A stretch of DNA of 64,000 nt from Promethearchaeia archaeon (GCA_029856045.1 JAHQWG010000028.1:266547-330546); one strand, 5' to 3'; shown: positions 32,052 through 54,042, counted from the stretch's first letter. Made by a program: numbers and translations. Notes: generated by a model not told the origin, from the sequence alone.

Positions 32052-33479
32052 ATGATTTTTATGTCAGATTCAGCTAAAAACATAATAAAATTTCTTTGTG
32101 ATCGGTTTTTTGAATTAGATTATTATCCAACCAGTTTAAGTGCACTATTGGATTTACCAATAGAGAAGTTGAGGGATTTTACACAAAAAGATATCTCTAA
32201 ATTTAACAAGATAGATATTAAAATATTACGTGATTTAACCACAATTAGTGAAGAAGAGTTTTTAGAACTTGCAACGCTAACAAACATGGATTCAAATGTA
32301 TTAAATAATGCAAAAATTGCCGCTACTTTAATAGCAAATGCATGGACTAAAAGAAAAGAATATATAAAAAAATCTCAGAGTAAAATCGTTGTAGCAGGTC
32401 TTGATTATGCAGGAAAAACATCTCTTATTAATAGATTAATGCATGATCATACTCCTGGGGATGTGATTAATTTAGAGCCTACAATAGGCGCAAATATCCA
32501 AGAATTTGAATCGGATAATTTAAACTTGATAATATGGGATCTTGGAGGGCAAAAAAGTAATTTAGAGGAATATATCCAAGAACCAGAGAAATTTTTTATC
32601 CAGCTAGATGTTTTATTTTTTGTATTTGATGCTCAAGATGATGTTCGCTATGAAGTTGCTCTTAAATATTTAAATGATCTCTTAGAAATTCTTGAATTTA
32701 TAAAAGAAATTCCCCATATCTTAATTCTTATAAATAAAGTAGATCCTGACATCGAAAAAGATCCCGATTTTCAAATCAAACTTGAATATTTATCTGATAA
32801 AATTACAAGAATCTTTCTTAAGAAACCAAAAAATGTAAACTATGAAATAATACAAACAAGTATTTATAATATTTATTCCCATGAGCCTGAAATCGTAAAA
32901 ACCATAAAAAATGTTTTTTCAAAAGATATTATTGCGAAGAAAGAAAAAAAAGAAATGGAAATTGATGAAAAACTTCAGAAAATATTGGATATTAATTTTA
33001 AATTAATGGATAAAGTTGTTTCTGAACTCTCTGACATAAAAAGAGTTTTATATAAATTAGCACCATCAGATCTTAAACAATCAATCTATGCTGTTCCTTT
33101 TGATAAAGTTCCCTCTGAATATGTATCAACTCCCAAAAAAATCGCAAAAAAGCCTATAATTGCAAAAATTGAAAAGGAAAAACCTAAAAAAAAGAAAAAA
33201 CCTAAAAAACCAGGGGTTCCTACTAAAATTCCTAAACCTATAAAATTATCTCCACCGGCATCCAAAATTGAAGAAACAATGGATAAATTAAGTCAAAAAT
33301 TTGAAGAAAGCGAACAAAGAATGGCATTGGAAAATTTAACACCACCCAAACCTCCTCCAAAAGCACCTGCAATTCCATCAACAACCCCACATAACATTAT
33401 TAATCCTCGCAGCCAAATAATGTCAGAGTTAAAAGATATCTTCAAAAAAAAGGGAATCGTGAAAAAAGAAATTGTCTAA
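32052..33479 (+). CDS. Arf-like small GTPase with N-terminal helical domain and Lys/Pro-rich tail
   Basis: A 475-residue Asgard-type multidomain GTPase. The first 110 residues are helical, with a repeated L-x-x-F/L pattern resembling tandem helix-hairpin-type modules. The GTPase core (about 112-300) has P-loop AGLDYAGKTS, switch-I threonine in EPTIG, G3 WDLGGQ and G4 NKVD: Arf/Arl features, including the glycine and glutamine of WDxGGQ. After a helix near 310-335 the rest is low complexity, rich in lysine and proline (about 355-455), with a short amphipathic end. There is no visible lipidation motif. ATG at 32061 is an alternative start. Role unknown, perhaps membrane or cytoskeletal regulation. 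Confidence 0.85.
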   Translation: MIFMSDSAKNIIKFLCDRFFELDYYPTSLSALLDLPIEKLRDFTQKDISKFNKIDIKILRDLTTISEEEFLELATLTNMDSNVLNNAKIAATLIANAWTKRKEYIKKSQSKIVVAGLDYAGKTSLINRLMHDHTPGDVINLEPTIGANIQEFESDNLNLIIWDLGGQKSNLEEYIQEPEKFFIQLDVLFFVFDAQDDVRYEVALKYLNDLLEILEFIKEIPHILILINKVDPDIEKDPDFQIKLEYLSDKITRIFLKKPKNVNYEIIQTSIYNIYSHEPEIVKTIKNVFSKDIIAKKEKKEMEIDEKLQKILDINFKLMDKVVSELSDIKRVLYKLAPSDLKQSIYAVPFDKVPSEYVSTPKKIAKKPIIAKIEKEKPKKKKKPKKPGVPTKIPKPIKLSPPASKIEETMDKLSQKFEESEQRMALENLTPPKPPPKAPAIPSTTPHNIINPRSQIMSELKDIFKKKGIVKKEIV

Positions 33480-39416: not shown

Positions 39417-40055
39417 TTATTTTATTGAGTTTGTTGCGAGCATCTCATCAAGGGCTTTAGTTATTTCTTTACATGATTCAAGCATCATTTCTGTGTAATT
39501 CACAACTGTTTGCTCAGATAGATTTCCTTGTTTTTTCCCTTCTAAAATTAATTCACAAAATCCTTGAATAGTATTAATTCCGCTTCTAATTTGCATAGTA
39601 AATGATTCTAATGGCAAGACTTCTTCCTTTTTCATATATATCTCATTTATTTCACTAAAAAATTTCTTAAATGATTTTATATCATCTGATAAAATTTGTT
39701 TGTTTCCTAATTTTAGGAATTCCATTTCAATTCTTCGGAAATGAATTATTGGAATTAGCGGATATGCTACATCCCGAAGAATTATCAGTGAATATAATTG
39801 TTTCCCTCCCCGAGCGCTAGGATCTTCAACTTCTATTTTACAGATCTGGGAATAAAATTGACTATAATCCAAAATGACAAATTTATTTTTAGTATTTAAT
39901 GCATCTCTCAAAAGATTTTTGACAAATTGCTCTTCCTTAAGTGGAAAAGATGAATATAAAGTTCTGGGACCCAAAATTTGATCATATTTTCCAATAATTA
40001 AAATAAATTGATATTTATCCAATCCTTCTTTAAAATTTAGGTAATCATCAGACAT
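39417..40055 (-). CDS. Longin-like domain fused to a degenerate HisKA helix pair
   Basis: A 212-residue protein. Residues about 10-135 form an alpha/beta domain with IIGKYDQILGPRTLYSS near 18-34, the G-P turn seen in longin-like domains of Asgard GTPase-linked proteins. Residues about 145-205 resemble a histidine-kinase dimerisation domain: ESFTMQIRSGINTIQGFCEL aligns with the SHELRTPLNAIIGFSEL box, but the phospho-accepting histidine is methionine and the adjacent proline is glycine. There is no ATPase domain. It lies 57 bases after the hybrid kinase gene at 40113 and could dimerise with that kinase as a regulator. The fusion is unusual; the longin assignment is moderate. Confidence 0.6.
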   Translation of the reverse strand: MSDDYLNFKEGLDKYQFILIIGKYDQILGPRTLYSSFPLKEEQFVKNLLRDALNTKNKFVILDYSQFYSQICKIEVEDPSARGGKQLYSLIILRDVAYPLIPIIHFRRIEMEFLKLGNKQILSDDIKSFKKFFSEINEIYMKKEEVLPLESFTMQIRSGINTIQGFCELILEGKKQGNLSEQTVVNYTEMMLESCKEITKALDEMLATNSIK

Positions 40056-46280: not shown

Positions 46281-46649
46281 TTAGACAATAACATTTTTGA
46301 CTGTTTCCCTAAAATCGTTAATATTTATTGGTTTTGCAATGTAAGTATCGAAACCTGCTTTCAATATACGTTCTTTATCACCTTTCATCGCGAAAGACGT
46401 GACAGCAATAATTGGAATGTTTTTATATTTTTCAAGTTTACGAAGTTCTTTACAAATATCGATTCCACTCATATCTGGTAGTTGAATGTCTAAAATTATT
46501 AGGTCTGGATTATCTGACTTTAGAGATTCAAAAGCTCGGGCACCATGCGTTTCTGCTACAATTTCAATATCAAGCATTGTATTTAGGACTGCTTTAAACA
46601 ATTTCATGTTTTTTTCATTATCTTCCACAAGAAATACTCGTTTTTTCAT
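46281..46649 (-). CDS. Stand-alone response regulator receiver domain
   Basis: A 122-residue CheY-like receiver with acidic residues EDN near 10-12, phosphoryl aspartate in LIILDIQLPDMSG near 54, threonine in VTSFA near 82 and lysine in YIAKPI near 104. It is the intact relative of the relic at 45827 and of the receiver at 37989. No output domain is attached, so it would act as a phosphate shuttle or bind a target protein. It is divergent from the RHH-HisKA-receiver gene at 47077, with a 427-base gap containing repeated ATAACAAAT sites. Confidence 0.9.
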   Translation of the reverse strand: MKKRVFLVEDNEKNMKLFKAVLNTMLDIEIVAETHGARAFESLKSDNPDLIILDIQLPDMSGIDICKELRKLEKYKNIPIIAVTSFAMKGDKERILKAGFDTYIAKPININDFRETVKNVIV

Positions 46650-46723: not shown

Positions 46724-46842
46724 ATAACAAATTTTGATAACAAATAGATACAAAATATTAGTGATAAACATAGTATTTAAATGTTTTGTTATAATAATGT
46801 GTTTGTTAACATTGAATTCTTTTTTACAATATTATAACAAAT
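46724..46842. promoter_or_regulatory. Cluster of ATAACAAAT / TTTGTTAT sites
   Basis: Copies of ATAACAAAT lie at 46724-46732, 46737-46745 and 46834-46842, with inverted TTTGTTAT at 46785-46792 and GTTTGTTAAC at 46800. They occupy the divergent promoter region between the receiver gene and the RHH-containing regulator gene. The rest of this 427-base gap holds no gene. Autoregulation by the RHH protein is a possibility; A+T-rich chance matches cannot be excluded. Confidence 0.4.
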
Positions 46843-47076: not shown

Positions 47077-47937
47077 ATGAATAATAAGAAAACTGAAGAG
47101 ATGGAAAAATATGAAAAAATGACTGGCAAACACGCAATTTGGCGTGGTGTAATAACTGAAGGATTTAAAAAATGGCAACGAGGAGAAAAAATTTATGATA
47201 GATTTAAGGAGAGAATAGCTCTATATGTAGCTAAAGAAACTAAAGAAGAATGGCAGAATTTCATAAATAATTCAAAATATACTTCTGTTTCTAAGCTTGT
47301 GAGAGATGCAGTAAATAATTTCATTGAAAAAAAATTAAAAGTAATAGATTATAAGAATTATAGTAAAGATAATCAGCTTAGAGATCTTTCAGATATCTCA
47401 CATGTTTTAAAAGAAGCATTAACTTCAATAAAAGGTTTCTCACAATTATTAATTGAAAATTATAAGGAAGAACTCAATGAGGAAATCATTTTAAAAATAA
47501 AAGAAATTTTTGATAAAAGCATCTTCCTTGAAAACAAGATTAATGAATCTTTAGAATATTCTCAAACTAAAAAATCACAATACGACATTTTATTAATTGA
47601 AGATGATATTTCAACAATAAAATTATTAACATCATTTTTTGAAAGGAAAGGTTATAGTTGTAAAGGTGTCATAAGTGGTTCTAGAGGATTGGATGAATTG
47701 AAGAGAAATATTCCAAAAATAATTTTATTAGACATTATTTTACCTGATATTAATGGATTTGAAGTTTGCAAAATAATAAAATCTAATAAAGAATATCAAA
47801 ATATTCCCATCTTTCTATTAACTGCTGTATCAAGTCTAAAAGTTGAGCATCTTATTAAAAAAGCAAAAGTAGATGGTTATATCTCAAAACCTTTTGATTT
47901 TTCGGATTTTAATATAATATTGGAATACTTACATTAA
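47077..47937 (+). CDS. RHH - HisKA-like - receiver regulator (paralogue 1)
   Basis: A 286-residue protein with a rare architecture. An N-terminal conserved segment (TGKHAIWRGVITEGFKKW, residues 16-33) leads into a ribbon-helix-helix-like region (KERIALYVAKETKEEWQNF, then VSKLVRDAVNNFIEKK, about 44-86). Next comes a HisKA-like helix pair with SHVLKEALTSIKGFSQLL, histidine at 109, but no ATPase domain. A complete receiver (about 168-286) has E175-D176-D177, phosphoryl D219, T249 and K271. It probably takes phosphate from a separate kinase and changes DNA binding. Its 3' end is four bases from that of the kinase gene at 47941, and a close paralogue lies at 50212. Confidence 0.8.
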   Translation: MNNKKTEEMEKYEKMTGKHAIWRGVITEGFKKWQRGEKIYDRFKERIALYVAKETKEEWQNFINNSKYTSVSKLVRDAVNNFIEKKLKVIDYKNYSKDNQLRDLSDISHVLKEALTSIKGFSQLLIENYKEELNEEIILKIKEIFDKSIFLENKINESLEYSQTKKSQYDILLIEDDISTIKLLTSFFERKGYSCKGVISGSRGLDELKRNIPKIILLDIILPDINGFEVCKIIKSNKEYQNIPIFLLTAVSSLKVEHLIKKAKVDGYISKPFDFSDFNIILEYLH

Positions 47938-47940
47938 TTT

Positions 47941-49947
47941 TTAATCTTTTAAAATGGGAAGAGAAAAATAAAATTTACTTCCTCTATTTCTTCCTTCTGA
48001 TGCCATCCAGATATTTCCCTCGTGTAAATCAATAATCTTTTTCGCAATATATAGACCGAGCCCTGTACCCTCAATTCTAACATCCCAACCTTGACCATAT
48101 CTTTCAATTTTTCCAAATTGTTTAAATAATTGATTCTTTTCCTCAGCGGAAAACCCAATTCCATTATCTTCTATTGAGATTATGAAAAAGTTAGATTTTA
48201 CTTCAGAAAAGATTTTAATTTCTCCTCCAGGAGGAGTGTAATTAATTGCGTTTAATAATAAATTTGAAAAGACTTCATAAATCCGCTGTTTATCAAAAGT
48301 TGTAATTAAATTATTATCAATATTTAAGGAAATAGATTGGTTTCTCAGCTCTAACACAGCTTGCATTTCTTTTAAGCAGGATTTGATCAATTTTGATAAA
48401 TTTCCTTGTTTTAAAATTAATTTTAATTGTCCAGATTCTAATTGGGATGATTCTAGGAGAGAATTAACTATATTATCAAGGCGCAGACATCCTTGTTTAA
48501 TTTCTTTTAAAATGGATATTGTCTTATTATCATATTTCTCTTCAAATTTTGTTAATAAAAAGTCAGAGAACCCCTTAATTGAGACAAGAGGAGTTTTCAA
48601 TTCATGGGAAGTTCTATTTAGTAAATTGGTTTTAAATTTATTTATTTCACTTAGTCGTATATTTTGCTCCTTTAAATTTTTCTGAATTTGCCATCTTTGT
48701 TCTTCAACCTTAATGGCACCACAAACTAAGGACAAAATCAAATGTTCTTGGTGTGAAATAGCAGGATTTTCTCTTTTTAAAATACAAATAAAACTATTAA
48801 ATTTATCTTTAGACTTAATTAATCTTCCAAATCCTCCTTTTATGTTGTATTTAATAATAAAAGGATCAGTTTTTGCATATTGGGTTTCATTTAGATTTAT
48901 AAATGTTTGTATAATATTCTGTTTAAGCTCGAATGTTTCATTTGTAAAATAATTCTTTTTAAATTCTTCCTTATTGCAATTAAAATTATTATCATCACTA
49001 GAAATGATTTGATATATTTTATTTCCATTTTGCACCCTTTTTCGAATATATAATACACTTTCTGCTTTACTCAATTTCTTTACTGTTTGAATTAGAGTTT
49101 TAATATTCGATTGGAAATCTGGTGTAAACTTTAAAAAACTTAAATTTATTTCATAAATTAAATTTTCATAAGTCTTTCTTTCATTAATATCTTGATAAGT
49201 TGTTTGAACATAAATATTATTTCCGAATTTTATTAAAGAGCTCTGGAGACTTACCCAAATCTTTTGTCCATCTACATTTAGTAATTCAACTTCAATAGGA
49301 CTAATTACTCCTCCTTTAATTATAGTTTCAAATCGATCTTTAAGTAGCAGTAAAATTTCTTGAGGATATATATCAAGTTGGTTCTTAGTTTTACCAACAA
49401 TTGTATCCTTTCTATATCCAAATAATCGTTCCGTTGCAGAGTTACAATCAATAACTCTTCCTTTTAAATTTGCTAAAATGATGGCGTAGGGAGAATTTTC
49501 AAATAAGAATCGATATTTCGCTTCAGATTCTATTAATTTTTGCTCAGTTTCTTTACGTTCAGTGATTTCTAACACAAATTCAACTGCTCCAATAATATTA
49601 TCATTATTATCTTTCACTGGAGAAGCTTTTACCTTCCATACCCTTCCATCGGGAGTAGTTTGTTCTGCTTCATGAGATTGCCTTGTTTCAATAGTTTTCA
49701 GCACAGGGCAATTAGCACATGGTGCATTTCTCTGATGCCATATCTCATAGCAATAGCCACCAATTAATTTATCAGTTGTTAGACTCACAGATTCAGAAGC
49801 GGCTTTGTTTGCCCACAAAATTTTTAATTCGTTATTATAATATAATATAAGCTCAGAAATACTGTTCAAAATAGGAGAGTTAAAAGTAATTTTAAGATTT
49901 CCTTCATTCTTTGAACTCGCATTATTTTCGAATTTTTGATTTTGCAT
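47941..49947 (-). CDS. PAS-PAS histidine kinase with cysteine-motif sensor
   Basis: A 668-residue soluble kinase. The first PAS (about 25-130) contains a CY-x11-CANCP motif near residues 67-83 that may bind a metal or sense redox state; a second PAS (about 140-260) follows, then a GAF-like region (about 270-420). HisKA is RTSHELKTPLVSIKGFSDFLL near 445 and HATPase_c has the N-box NLLLNAINYT, G1 EDNGIGFSAE and G2 GTGLGLYIAKKI near 560-665. It is flanked by two RHH-HisKA-receiver genes: tail to tail with one (47077) and divergent from the other (50212). They are the obvious phosphotransfer partners. Confidence 0.9.
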   Translation of the reverse strand: MQNQKFENNASSKNEGNLKITFNSPILNSISELILYYNNELKILWANKAASESVSLTTDKLIGGYCYEIWHQRNAPCANCPVLKTIETRQSHEAEQTTPDGRVWKVKASPVKDNNDNIIGAVEFVLEITERKETEQKLIESEAKYRFLFENSPYAIILANLKGRVIDCNSATERLFGYRKDTIVGKTKNQLDIYPQEILLLLKDRFETIIKGGVISPIEVELLNVDGQKIWVSLQSSLIKFGNNIYVQTTYQDINERKTYENLIYEINLSFLKFTPDFQSNIKTLIQTVKKLSKAESVLYIRKRVQNGNKIYQIISSDDNNFNCNKEEFKKNYFTNETFELKQNIIQTFINLNETQYAKTDPFIIKYNIKGGFGRLIKSKDKFNSFICILKRENPAISHQEHLILSLVCGAIKVEEQRWQIQKNLKEQNIRLSEINKFKTNLLNRTSHELKTPLVSIKGFSDFLLTKFEEKYDNKTISILKEIKQGCLRLDNIVNSLLESSQLESGQLKLILKQGNLSKLIKSCLKEMQAVLELRNQSISLNIDNNLITTFDKQRIYEVFSNLLLNAINYTPPGGEIKIFSEVKSNFFIISIEDNGIGFSAEEKNQLFKQFGKIERYGQGWDVRIEGTGLGLYIAKKIIDLHEGNIWMASEGRNRGSKFYFSLPILKD

Positions 49948-50211
49948 ATTTTCTAACTAATTAATATTTATTCAAAAGAATCAAATGAATAATTTTAATA
50001 AAAATTAAACTTAGAAGGTTATTTTTGCTAATAGCATAAAGAAAATAATAAAAGAAGTATATTAAATTAAGCATCATAAAGTTAAAATTGGAAAAATAAG
50101 ATTAAATTTTGTGCTAATAATAAAAAAACTTATATTATAATTTGTGATAATAATAATCTAGATATGTTATAAATACAGTGAATCCTTCCTTTTTTATTGG
50201 TGATTTCAATT

Positions 50212-51072
50212 TTGAATAATGAAAAAAAAAATAGTGAAATGGAACAATATGAAAAAGAGACAGGAAAATATGCTGTTTGGCGTGGTATCATAACTGAAGG
50301 ATTTAAAAAGTGGAAAAGAGGAGAAAAGATTTATGATAGAGATAAGGAGAGAATATCACTCTATATATCGGAAGAAACTAAAAAAAAATGGCAAAATTTT
50401 ATTGAAAGTAGCAAATATTCTTCAATTTCAAAATTGATAAGAGATGCTATGGATTTTTTTATTAATGAGAAATTAAGAGGAGGTATTGATGAAAAACTTA
50501 AAAAATCAAGACCTTTTAAATCAATTACTGATATTTCCCATGATTTAAAAGAGGCTTTAACTACCATAAAAGGATTTTCACAGTTATTGCTTAATAACTA
50601 TAAGGATGATATAAAAGAAGATGTATTATCAAAAATTAAGGAGATTTTTAATAAAAGTATATTTCTTGAAAATAAAATAAAAGAAGTCTTGGAAAAAGGA
50701 GAAAATAGAAAGACACAATATGACCTTTTATTAATTGAAGATGACCCATCGACTATAAAATTATTAACCACGTTTTTTGAAAGTAAAGGTTATTCTAGTA
50801 GAGGGGTAATTAGTGGTTCTAAGGGAATAGAAGAATTAAAAGTAAATGTTCCAAAATTAATATTATTAGATATAATATTGCCAGATATAAATGGATATGA
50901 TGTTTGTAAAATTATAAAATCTGATGAGAATCTTAAATATATTCCAGTTTTTTTCTTAACGGCAATTCCAAGTTCAGAAGTTGAGAAAAAAATTAAATTT
51001 GCTGGTGCAGATGGATATATTTTGAAACCATTTGATTTTAGTGATTTTGAAATTTTATATACATATCTATAA
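50212..51072 (+). CDS. RHH - HisKA-like - receiver regulator (paralogue 2)
   Basis: A 286-residue paralogue of the 47077 product, similar over its whole length. It has TGKYAVWRGIITEGFKKW near 18-35, RHH-like KERISLYISEETKKKWQNF and ISKLIRDAMDFFI (about 45-85), HisKA-like SHDLKEALTTIKGFSQLL with histidine at 110, and a receiver with EDD near 176, phosphoryl D220, T250 and K272. I choose TTG at 50212: it gives the same N-terminus and length as the paralogue and lies eight bases after GGTGA; TTG 50197 and GTG 50200 lie in or before that site. It is divergent from the kinase at 47941. The receiver and HisKA-like histidine look intact. Confidence 0.8.
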   Translation: MNNEKKNSEMEQYEKETGKYAVWRGIITEGFKKWKRGEKIYDRDKERISLYISEETKKKWQNFIESSKYSSISKLIRDAMDFFINEKLRGGIDEKLKKSRPFKSITDISHDLKEALTTIKGFSQLLLNNYKDDIKEDVLSKIKEIFNKSIFLENKIKEVLEKGENRKTQYDLLLIEDDPSTIKLLTTFFESKGYSSRGVISGSKGIEELKVNVPKLILLDIILPDINGYDVCKIIKSDENLKYIPVFFLTAIPSSEVEKKIKFAGADGYILKPFDFSDFEILYTYL

Positions 51073-51219: not shown

Positions 51220-52527
51220 ATGGTTATAGGCATAGCATTATTTAGTTGGGATAAGAAGATGGGTCCGGTTTTAGAGATTAAACATCCTGAAAATCTTGAT
51301 TTATCACAAAATTTAATTAATAAAATATATATGACTCATGCTTATAGGCAGGAAAATCAAAATGAAGAGTTAATGGAAATTAATCTGGAGAATAAAATTA
51401 TACTTAGCTACTGTGATATGTCTAAAGTTGCAAAATTTGGGTATGAAATAATTATTCTTATTGTTCATGAGAAGGAGAAAATACATCTTAAAAATTTAAA
51501 ATCCAAATTATTTGAATTTGCGAGAGAAGTGTTAAATAAACCTAAAATTGAGAGACATAAGTATTTTTTTGAAAATCTCGATTTGTTTTTTAAAGAAACA
51601 TTAAAGAAAAAGATATTATTAGTTGGACGAGCAGCTACAGGAAAATCTAGTATTAAGCAAGTTATTTTTGAAGGAAAGATGCCACAGGAGTTATTATCTA
51701 ATCCCCTTGAGCCAACTCGTGGTTTAACACCCTCTGTTTATTCATGGTTAGATCTGGATTTGGGTATTTTCGATTCAGCTGGTCAAGAACTGGATTATTT
51801 ATTAGATGATAAAAATGAACAAACCTTAGCATTCGAAAATACTGATATTATAATATATATGTTTGATTACCTAACGTGGGTTGAAAATAACGAAATAATA
51901 ATAAAAGATATCAGAAAAATTTCAAGAATTATTAAACAAGAGTCTTATAATGCTAGGATTATATTATTTCTACATAAAATTGACTTAATTAAGGAAGAAA
52001 ATAGAGAACAAAACATAAAAAATATCCAGCGAGAAATAAAAGAACAATTGAATTTACAGATTTATTTTACAAGTCTTTATCCAAATTTAATTTATAATAC
52101 TTATAATGCATTTTATGAGATTTTGAGTAATTTTTCCAAAGAGACAATTTATTTTAAAGAAATTTTGGATGAAAAAATTAAAGACAGTTCAAAATCTATG
52201 TGTTTTATAACTAATCAAAACAGTAGTATAGTTGTTCAGACAATGTCTAATGATTTCAATTTTAAATTAATCAACCAAATTCATAGATTAATTGCTCAAT
52301 TTGACCAATCATTTGAAGACATGTGTATGAATGATAATATCGATTATATGATACTTTCAAGTTTGAAAAATTTTAATATTATTATGAAATTTCTTAACCT
52401 CTCGAATTATAATCTTAAAAATTTAATTTTAATCTCTGAAATAGCTAGTATCAATCAATTAATAGGATTTTGTGAGGAAATTAAAAGTACTTTGAATAGA
52501 TATTTTTATAAAGATATTCAACTATGA
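51220..52527 (+). CDS. Rag-like GTPase with N-terminal longin-like and C-terminal roadblock-like domains
   Basis: A 435-residue protein. Residues 1-120 are longin-like (IALFSWDKKMGPVLEIKHP near 4-22). The GTPase (about 128-290) has G1 LVGRAATGKSS, switch I EPTRG, G3 FDSAGQE and G4 LHKIDLI; the HKxD form of G4 is a hallmark of Rag/Gtr proteins, and the region around EGKMPQELLSNPLEPTRG also fits RagA. The C-terminal 130 residues follow the Rag roadblock pattern (SSIVVQTMSNDFNFKLINQI, later KNLILISEIASINQLIGF). Nine bases separate it from a second Rag-like gene, suggesting a heterodimer like RagA/RagC in eukaryotic nutrient signalling. No lipid anchor is evident. Confidence 0.8.
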   Translation: MVIGIALFSWDKKMGPVLEIKHPENLDLSQNLINKIYMTHAYRQENQNEELMEINLENKIILSYCDMSKVAKFGYEIIILIVHEKEKIHLKNLKSKLFEFAREVLNKPKIERHKYFFENLDLFFKETLKKKILLVGRAATGKSSIKQVIFEGKMPQELLSNPLEPTRGLTPSVYSWLDLDLGIFDSAGQELDYLLDDKNEQTLAFENTDIIIYMFDYLTWVENNEIIIKDIRKISRIIKQESYNARIILFLHKIDLIKEENREQNIKNIQREIKEQLNLQIYFTSLYPNLIYNTYNAFYEILSNFSKETIYFKEILDEKIKDSSKSMCFITNQNSSIVVQTMSNDFNFKLINQIHRLIAQFDQSFEDMCMNDNIDYMILSSLKNFNIIMKFLNLSNYNLKNLILISEIASINQLIGFCEEIKSTLNRYFYKDIQL

Positions 52528-52536
52528 GAATCTAAA

Positions 52537-54042
52537 ATGGGTAAGAAGATAATTTTCGTTGGACCGCCTGGAGCGGGAAAAACCACCTTAAGAAAAGTTT
52601 TTTTTGAGGGAGAATCTTCTTCAAAATTATTAGATTATGCATTAGAGCCTACACATGGTAAAGAATCAGTTATTCTTCAGTTAAGTGAGGATGTTGGAGT
52701 GTTTGATCTAGCAGGTCAGGAAAATACAAGGTGGTTTGAAACAGATGATAAAGAAATTTTCTACGATACAAAAATTCTTATAGTAGTTATTGATATTACA
52801 ACAGACCATGAAAGAATTATAGAGTTTATTAACAGAGTTATTAAAATTCGAAATGAATTAACACCGACTGCATTTATATATATATTAATTCATAAAATTG
52901 ATTTGGTAGCACAAAAAACAATCAAAGCAATAAAATATAAAATTTCTGATGTTATTGGTGAGGAAAAGTCTGTTAAAATTGCATTTACAAGTATTCAGAA
53001 AGTATATTTCCCCTCAACATTTTCATTGTTTATGGATATCTTAGATACATGTATAAGTGAAAGGGTAACTCCTGAAAGAATTAATTTGAATCTACTTCAA
53101 AACACTATTGATTTTTTATATGAATTACAAAAGAGTGTTTTAATTTCGAAAGATGATTTACAGATAAGATTAAAAGCTCCTGATGAAATGATTGATTCTA
53201 TAAGCAAACTATTGAGTAATAAAGGACATATTGATGTTTCAAAAATAAATGATAGAACAATTTTTAGTTTAACTGATAAAGGTAAAAATTATTTTAAAGA
53301 AATTTTAAATAAATTTTCTTTGCAAAAATTGATTAAATTTGAGAAAGAACATTATAAGACAGAAGCCGCTTTAGGGCCAAAAGTTCCTCCATATTTAGGT
53401 TTTTTGGTGGCTGATAAAGATGGAAAAACAATAATAAATGTAGAAATATTTGACGGAGCTTTTGATTTAATCTTAAATGCTGAAGAGGGAGCAATGAAAA
53501 CTGATTTTGAGTTAATTCCTATGTTCATTAGTGCTTTAGAAAAATTCTCGGAAGAAATAAATATAAAGGAATTAGCGGGTTTTCAATTAAAGGGAACAAA
53601 TATTGAAATGCAAACTTTATCTTTTGAATTATATACAGTTACTCTTTTTATAAATCCAGAAACAAATGTTAAATTTTTTGAATATATAATCAGAGAATGG
53701 TTTGAAAATCTTTTTGAAATACATAGAAAAGAACTTGAGTCTGCTATTAAGACTGGTTATATGACTCAAGTTTCTAAATTAAATCAAGAAGGGAGAGAAT
53801 GGTTGGACAATCTTAACCAAAGATATAAAAATATGGCTATGAACTTGGAGATTTTTGATTTTGATCAAGCTAAAGTACTTTATCATCATATAGATGATAT
53901 ATCTGCAGATATTAATTTTAAATATACTTTAGTCTTACAAAAGATCAAAAAATTAAAAATAGATTTAATGAAGGCGATATTAGTAGAAGATTTTCAAGAA
54001 GTAAAAGAAATTGCCGGTAAGATTCGAGAAATTAAAGTTTAA
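52537..54042 (+). CDS. Second Rag-like GTPase with winged-helix and longin-like domains
   Basis: A 501-residue protein starting directly with the GTPase: G1 FVGPPGAGKTTLRKVFFEG near 7-25, switch I EPTHG near 38, G3 FDLAGQENTRWF near 57 and G4 IHKIDLV (HKxD) near 122. A winged-helix-like segment follows (about 185-250; LTDKGKNYFKEI), then a longin-like domain (about 275-400; YLGFLVADKDGKTI) and a long helical C-terminus. It is the probable partner of the product encoded nine bases upstream. Both proteins carry longin-like domains, the fold of several subunits of eukaryotic Rag regulators. Binding partners are unknown. Confidence 0.8.
   Translation: MGKKIIFVGPPGAGKTTLRKVFFEGESSSKLLDYALEPTHGKESVILQLSEDVGVFDLAGQENTRWFETDDKEIFYDTKILIVVIDITTDHERIIEFINRVIKIRNELTPTAFIYILIHKIDLVAQKTIKAIKYKISDVIGEEKSVKIAFTSIQKVYFPSTFSLFMDILDTCISERVTPERINLNLLQNTIDFLYELQKSVLISKDDLQIRLKAPDEMIDSISKLLSNKGHIDVSKINDRTIFSLTDKGKNYFKEILNKFSLQKLIKFEKEHYKTEAALGPKVPPYLGFLVADKDGKTIINVEIFDGAFDLILNAEEGAMKTDFELIPMFISALEKFSEEINIKELAGFQLKGTNIEMQTLSFELYTVTLFINPETNVKFFEYIIREWFENLFEIHRKELESAIKTGYMTQVSKLNQEGREWLDNLNQRYKNMAMNLEIFDFDQAKVLYHHIDDISADINFKYTLVLQKIKKLKIDLMKAILVEDFQEVKEIAGKIREIKV

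Follow-up and report, generated by a model that had tools for sequence, protein, structure and literature searches.

The window, a 64,000-nucleotide stretch of a Promethearchaeia archaeon genome (GCA_029856045.1 JAHQWG010000028.1:266547-330546), contains two paralogous genes whose products, P0001 and P0002 (65% identical), join an N-terminal TGKxAxWRG module and a ribbon-helix-helix (RHH) domain to a HisKA/DHp hairpin and a receiver. We read them as DNA-binding response regulators, members of a family of Lokiarchaeia and Sigynarchaeota, whose receiver aspartate is phosphorylated in trans, and give this reading a probability of about one half. It is supported by the coexistence of RHH and receiver domains, the capacity to bind DNA being predicted from the fold.

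Domain architecture and conserved residues

Both reading frames lie on the plus strand at the positions given in Table 1 and carry all the parts ascribed to them by the initial annotation: the TGK segment, the RHH region, a HisKA-type hairpin keeping its histidine and an intact receiver. Pfam Response_reg is matched at an E-value of 1e-19 in P0001 and P0002, and the aspartate (Asp219 and Asp220, respectively), threonine and lysine are all present. Conservation was evaluated in 133 distinct family members, receiver residues being counted only where the position is covered: Asp is found in 130/130, Lys in 129/129 and Thr/Ser in 129/129.

HisKA falls just under the Pfam cut-off in P0001 and P0002 (2.7e-4 and 1.6e-5), and HisKA (PF00512) is matched at E<0.01 by 49 of the 54 aligned family members, with 1.1e-11 as the best value. 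A profile of the hairpin segment compared to PDB matched the kinase HK853 across both helices (6.6e-10), and the predicted hairpin fold superimposes on the GacS DHp with an rmsd of 1.1 Å over 60 residues; the underlying structure model of residues 9-164 has low confidence (pLDDT 69), and only its DHp match was used. Because of the HisKA, HK853 and GacS matches the hairpin is not a plain coiled coil, and the HisKA nature of this segment stands. The fold search with the full-length model was swamped by receivers, RR468 being among the best. HATPase_c was found neither in P0001 and P0002 nor in any of the 54 aligned members, so the proteins do not qualify as histidine kinases.

The proposed RHH fold also holds. 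Profile-profile comparison with Lokiarchaeal RHH_1 proteins gave a probability of 96.2% and an E-value of 2e-9 over 44 columns, against 1.6% for the control comparison of DHp with RHH. The single-chain AF2 prediction has helices at residues 54-66 and 72-91 of this region, and its strand holds an exposed R-x-S-x-Y pattern (Arg47 97%, Ser49 81%, Tyr51 90%).

The hairpin ranks among the most conserved parts of the family (Leu116 and Ile119 100%, Gly121 and Glu153 99%, Lys113/Lys120 98%), and its histidine is kept in 125 of the 133 members. At the position after the histidine, 55% of members have Ala and 27/133 (about 20%) Glu/Asp; at H+4, 94% have Glu and about 1/133 Thr/Asn. The 39 kinases found in the same neighbourhoods have Glu/Asp at H+1 in 37 cases and Thr at H+4 in 34. 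The family thus lacks the H-box of HisKA kinases and phosphatases, with its acid after the histidine and Thr/Asn at H+4. Since the hairpin is conserved and its H-box is of a non-kinase type, selection acts on the hairpin fold and not on HisKA kinase chemistry.

Several lineages have an intact receiver but Tyr, Phe, Leu, Gln or Arg where the histidine would be. Tyr occupies this position in the P0001 orthologues from the sister species G001, G002 and G004, and two members without the histidine sit beside kinases, one full-length (L199) and one a 254-aa open reading frame (ORF; L209). A correlation between loss of the histidine and loss of the kinase was seen within the window genus, where His109 is kept only if the kinase is intact. 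Over dispersed members the association was not significant (p 0.43); hand-corrected counts, with two unscored members read, are 18 with and 2 without histidine beside a kinase and 12 and 5 elsewhere.

These losses bear on a built-in phosphorelay, in which phosphate would pass between the receiver Asp and the His of the same chain (from Asp to His, or from a kinase through His to Asp) and the hairpin would be a histidine phosphotransfer domain. Such transfer needs no ATPase domain, most members do keep the histidine, the hairpin resembles HK853 over both helices and the best structural matches to the receiver include RR468, whose kinase is HK853. The replacement of the histidine in several lineages, three sister species of the window included, next to a receiver that is never degraded, and an H+1 acid mostly changed to Ala make this relay rather unlikely. 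Transfer from Asp to the protein's own His, proposed initially, is therefore weakened as the core of the mechanism; the intact receiver stands. Given the losses and the non-kinase H-box, the hairpin is most likely an element for dimerisation and receiver docking in which the phosphate site is optional.

Kinase neighbours, tandem pairs and distribution

Histidine kinase genes, called by a home-made hidden Markov model among mechanically called ORFs, are immediate neighbours of 20 of the 37 dispersed family members (the two of the window included), so occurrence beside kinases is a property of the orthologues as well. Kinase relations are convergent downstream in 15 of 21 cases, with gaps of about 2-132 bp, compared to only 4 of 40 for neighbours without an assigned class. 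The excess of convergent kinases relative to other genes at the same loci has a Fisher p of 9e-6; the lineages are not independent. As a histidine kinase lies tail to tail with 14 of the 35 dispersed copies outside the window, the regulator-kinase arrangement of the window is a recurrent one.

The window kinase itself (PAS, HisKA and HATPase_c by Pfam, one PAS segment bearing a cysteine cluster) has the orientation described initially, its stop codon being 3 bp from that of P0001. In sister species it is cut to about 105 C-terminal codons at the same breakpoint (3/3 loci read), with both regulators kept, and the G001 remnant has an in-frame stop besides. The locus shows a mosaic of pairwise identities, which suggests recombination within the genus. 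A conserved lineage of cognate kinases, suggested by the locus kinases alone, failed genome-wide: none of the nearest kinase-core relatives in 29 other genomes (0/29) has a family member within 1.5 kb. Judging from the remnants and these relatives, the window kinase is not a conserved partner, yet it may be the partner of the two regulators in this genome. The flanked kinase is weakened as an obligate partner.

The recurrent adjacency, a complete DHp hairpin and the presence of the RetS-GacS DHp complex among its fold matches would suit a mixed four-helix bundle of the RetS-GacS type, in which the regulator heterodimerises with the neighbouring kinase through DHp and tunes it. We consider this quite unlikely: the window kinase's nearest relatives elsewhere do not adjoin the family, and the commonest form of the family has no adjacent kinase. 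The relay and the mixed dimer have less support than phosphorylation of a DNA-binding regulator in trans.

This commonest form, found in most genera, is a pair of tandem copies with a TFB gene in divergent orientation; the same cluster holds genes for GatE, GatD, ribosomal L2, the proteasome alpha subunit, SBDS and others. TFB is at most three genes away for 73 of 103 paired genes; many of the others lie where a contig ends or have a different context. Some 9-mers are enriched in the region preceding the TFB-linked pair; they may be promoter elements retained from a common ancestor. Several dispersed members sit behind genes for methyl-accepting chemotaxis proteins (MCP), and in another recurrent locus the family is accompanied by a folliculin-like protein and two GTPases, one of them Rag/Arf-like and about 490 residues long.

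In GTDB genomes the family occurs in Lokiarchaeota and Sigynarchaeota records and in one record labelled Bathyarchaeota, which may be misbinned. Among 39 related genomes, 26 have 1-7 copies at E<=1e-20, and no copies at this threshold were found in family f2 of the order. A scan of viral contigs found no relatives. In a quick family tree with some weak branches, TFB-proximal and TFB-distal copies form separate groups, Sigynarchaeal pairs stand apart and the pair of the window genus is its own duplication outside the TFB-linked groups. Since the window and Sigynarchaeal pairs branch apart, tandem duplication occurred more than once.

A close relative of the family's receiver (57%) is fused to leucine-rich repeats in L076:5584-7221 (G013:C101), with Cys in the position of Asp (VMCIMLPD).

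The N-terminal module and the proposed mechanism

The TGKxAxWRG module is a segment of 34 residues, N-terminal in P0001 and P0002. Judged by its sequence, it is common to these regulators and to the RNA polymerase subunit Rpo1N, where it forms the extreme C-terminus in 10 of 10 genomes examined, that of the window included. In two genomes of family f2 the Rpo1N tail has up to three or four copies. Among unrelated Lokiarchaeal proteins, the module occurs twice in a zinc-ribbon protein (L009) and also in a repeat protein; within 196 genomes of the phylum, hits come solely from this order and from one other family in the class. No description of such an Rpo1N tail was found in the literature. Near a TFB-linked pair, L054:4706-6037 (G011:C34) encodes a 443-aa protein in which the TGK module is joined with RHH and leucine-rich repeats.

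We propose that a histidine kinase would phosphorylate the receiver Asp in trans; its gene is in many cases, though not in all, the convergent neighbour. The hairpin, lacking the ATPase half and the residues typical of HisKA kinases and phosphatases, would chiefly mediate dimerisation, as a four-helix bundle, and receiver docking, and pass the phosphorylation state of the receiver to the RHH dimer, which presumably binds DNA. The surviving histidine could be an optional phosphate sink or relay, and the TGK module may link the regulator with nucleic acid or the transcription machinery. Because tandem duplication has occurred repeatedly, the copies may be used in pairs or as heterodimers. We further speculate that the regulator reaches polymerase via the module of the Rpo1N tail, copied or shared, using a CA-less DHp hinge and paralogous heterodimers; this bolder version is doubtful.

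Several observations weigh against the proposed DNA-binding response regulator. Pfam RHH_1 is matched weakly, by 4 of 54 members with 0.0019 at best, and is below threshold in most. The histidine, though not strictly required, is retained widely enough to argue for some role in most members. The module is also found in an ABC ATPase, and no relative of it was found in PDB. The genomes are metagenome-assembled, and neighbour counts are phylogenetically non-independent. Finally, the search for an operator found none, and the two upstream regions share motifs no more than expected by chance: they have 6 near-identical 13-mers in common, the mean for 210 intergenic pairs of the window is 6.6 and 94 of these pairs score as high. 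The candidate shared element TTTGTKATAATAA, which has 6 exact genomic sites including 2 here, was dropped for this reason, and the operator expected at 46724-46842 finds no support above chance sharing of sequence.

Two further explanations fare worse. If the proteins were vestiges of hybrid kinases, with the hairpin an inert linker between RHH and receiver, the degenerate H-box and missing ATPase domain would follow naturally, but the hairpin is conserved beyond what an inert linker would require, and we consider this very unlikely. A role outside transcription, with RHH for dimerisation only or with action on GTPase or chemotaxis partners, would agree with the Rag/Arf-like GTPase and MCP neighbours and the weak Pfam RHH, but is the least probable of all given the kept R-x-S-x-Y pattern, the module in common with RNA polymerase and the TFB linkage.

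Gene layout and relation to known systems

Table 1. Features of the two-component locus (window positions) and related loci in other contigs and genomes
Feature	Position	Strand	Remarks
P0001	47077..47937	+	286 aa; TGK module, RHH, HisKA/DHp hairpin, receiver
P0001 TGKxAxWRG module	47098..47199	+	residues 8-41; same module as Rpo1N C-terminal tail
P0001 RHH domain	47206..47337	+	residues 44-87; profile-profile 96%, E 2e-9
P0001 HisKA/DHp hairpin	47371..47565	+	residues 99-163; His109 codon 47401-47403
P0001 receiver	47587..47910	+	residues 171-278; Asp219 codon 47731-47733; Response_reg 1.1e-19
P0002	50212..51072	+	286 residues; architecture as P0001
P0002 TGKxAxWRG module	50236..50337	+	residues 9-42
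P0002 RHH domain	50344..50475	+	residues 45-88; Pfam RHH_1 E 0.08; profile-profile comparison
P0002 HisKA/DHp hairpin	50509..50703	+	residues 100-164; His110 codon 50539-50541
P0002 receiver	50728..51045	+	residues 173-278; Asp220 codon 50869-50871; Response_reg 9.6e-20
PAS-PAS-HisKA-HATPase_c histidine kinase	47941..49947	-	convergent with P0001, divergent from P0002
Stand-alone CheY-like receiver	46281..46649	-	divergent from P0001; present in every sister species examined
Rpo1N of the window's genome	L252:3783-6719 (G000:C35)	-	C-terminal tail ends in TGKxAxWRG module
Rpo1N with module tail, other genomes	L253, L258-L265		
Kinase remnants in three sister species	L042:7522-7851, L043:8335-8664, L041:8633-9085		HATPase part only

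The P0002 codon at 50212 is TTG, not ATG; an alternative TTG start is at 50197 and the earliest ATG at 50239. Three Gtr1/RagA-like GTPase genes are located around the two-component cluster (51220-52527, 52537-54042 and 32052-33479 (+)), and a relative of the last directly adjoins the RHH-HisKA-REC family in other genera. The gene at 39417-40055 (-) codes for a protein of 212 aa that matches folliculin weakly and then has a HisKA-like hairpin without the histidine; its relatives are found in the recurrent locus with Rag-like GTPases and kinases.

The initial annotation knew of no described system with this architecture, but the layout had already been reported: one sentence in Galperin et al. 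2018 (PMC5847659) mentions 'Arc-type RHH-HisKA-REC' proteins in Lokiarchaeum GC14_75. These four proteins, compared here by their description, agree with P0001 and P0002 in domain order and archaeal lineage, and are given there without context, residues or mechanism. Our analysis adds the distribution, the TFB pair locus, the convergent kinases, the degenerate H-box and the N-terminal module. A 34-kDa HisKA-REC protein, KKK46010.1, is reported in PMC10343646; the multi-PAS kinase KKK46009.1 has the consecutive accession, and from these numbers the two genes are presumably adjacent. The recurrent face-to-face kinase pairing and the front module common to the Rpo1N tail seem to be undescribed.

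Archaeal response regulators with a helix-turn-helix (HTH) domain, HTH-REC, such as LtrR (cited in PMC5847659), likewise have a DNA-binding domain N-terminal to the receiver and a partner kinase, but they use HTH and have no DHp hairpin, whereas P0001 and P0002 have RHH and the hairpin. The 'HisKA, no HATPase' proteins of Archaeoglobi and Methanomicrobia (PMC5847659) share a HisKA hairpin with its histidine and no ATPase domain; unlike P0001 and P0002 they contain PAS/GAF sensors, without a receiver or DNA-binding domain. HK853-RR468 provides the best or near-best solved-structure match for both the hairpin and the receiver of the family, but there the receiver is a separate protein and the H-box is H-E-L-R-T-P, while the family has one chain, no ATPase and H-A/D-L-K-E-P. 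The family lends itself naturally to testing if a DHp hairpin works as a hinge once kinase chemistry is gone.

In most archaeal response regulators no DNA-binding output can be recognised, and it is an open question how archaeal two-component systems act on transcription (PMC5847659). The present Asgard family is widespread and multi-copy; with a DNA-binding domain, an intact receiver, recurrent kinase neighbours and a module in common with the RNA polymerase large subunit, it makes this question testable by ordinary biochemistry. If the polymerase-linked version of the regulator were true, it would be a direct connection from a two-component system to RNA polymerase in Asgard archaea, unlike known response regulators.

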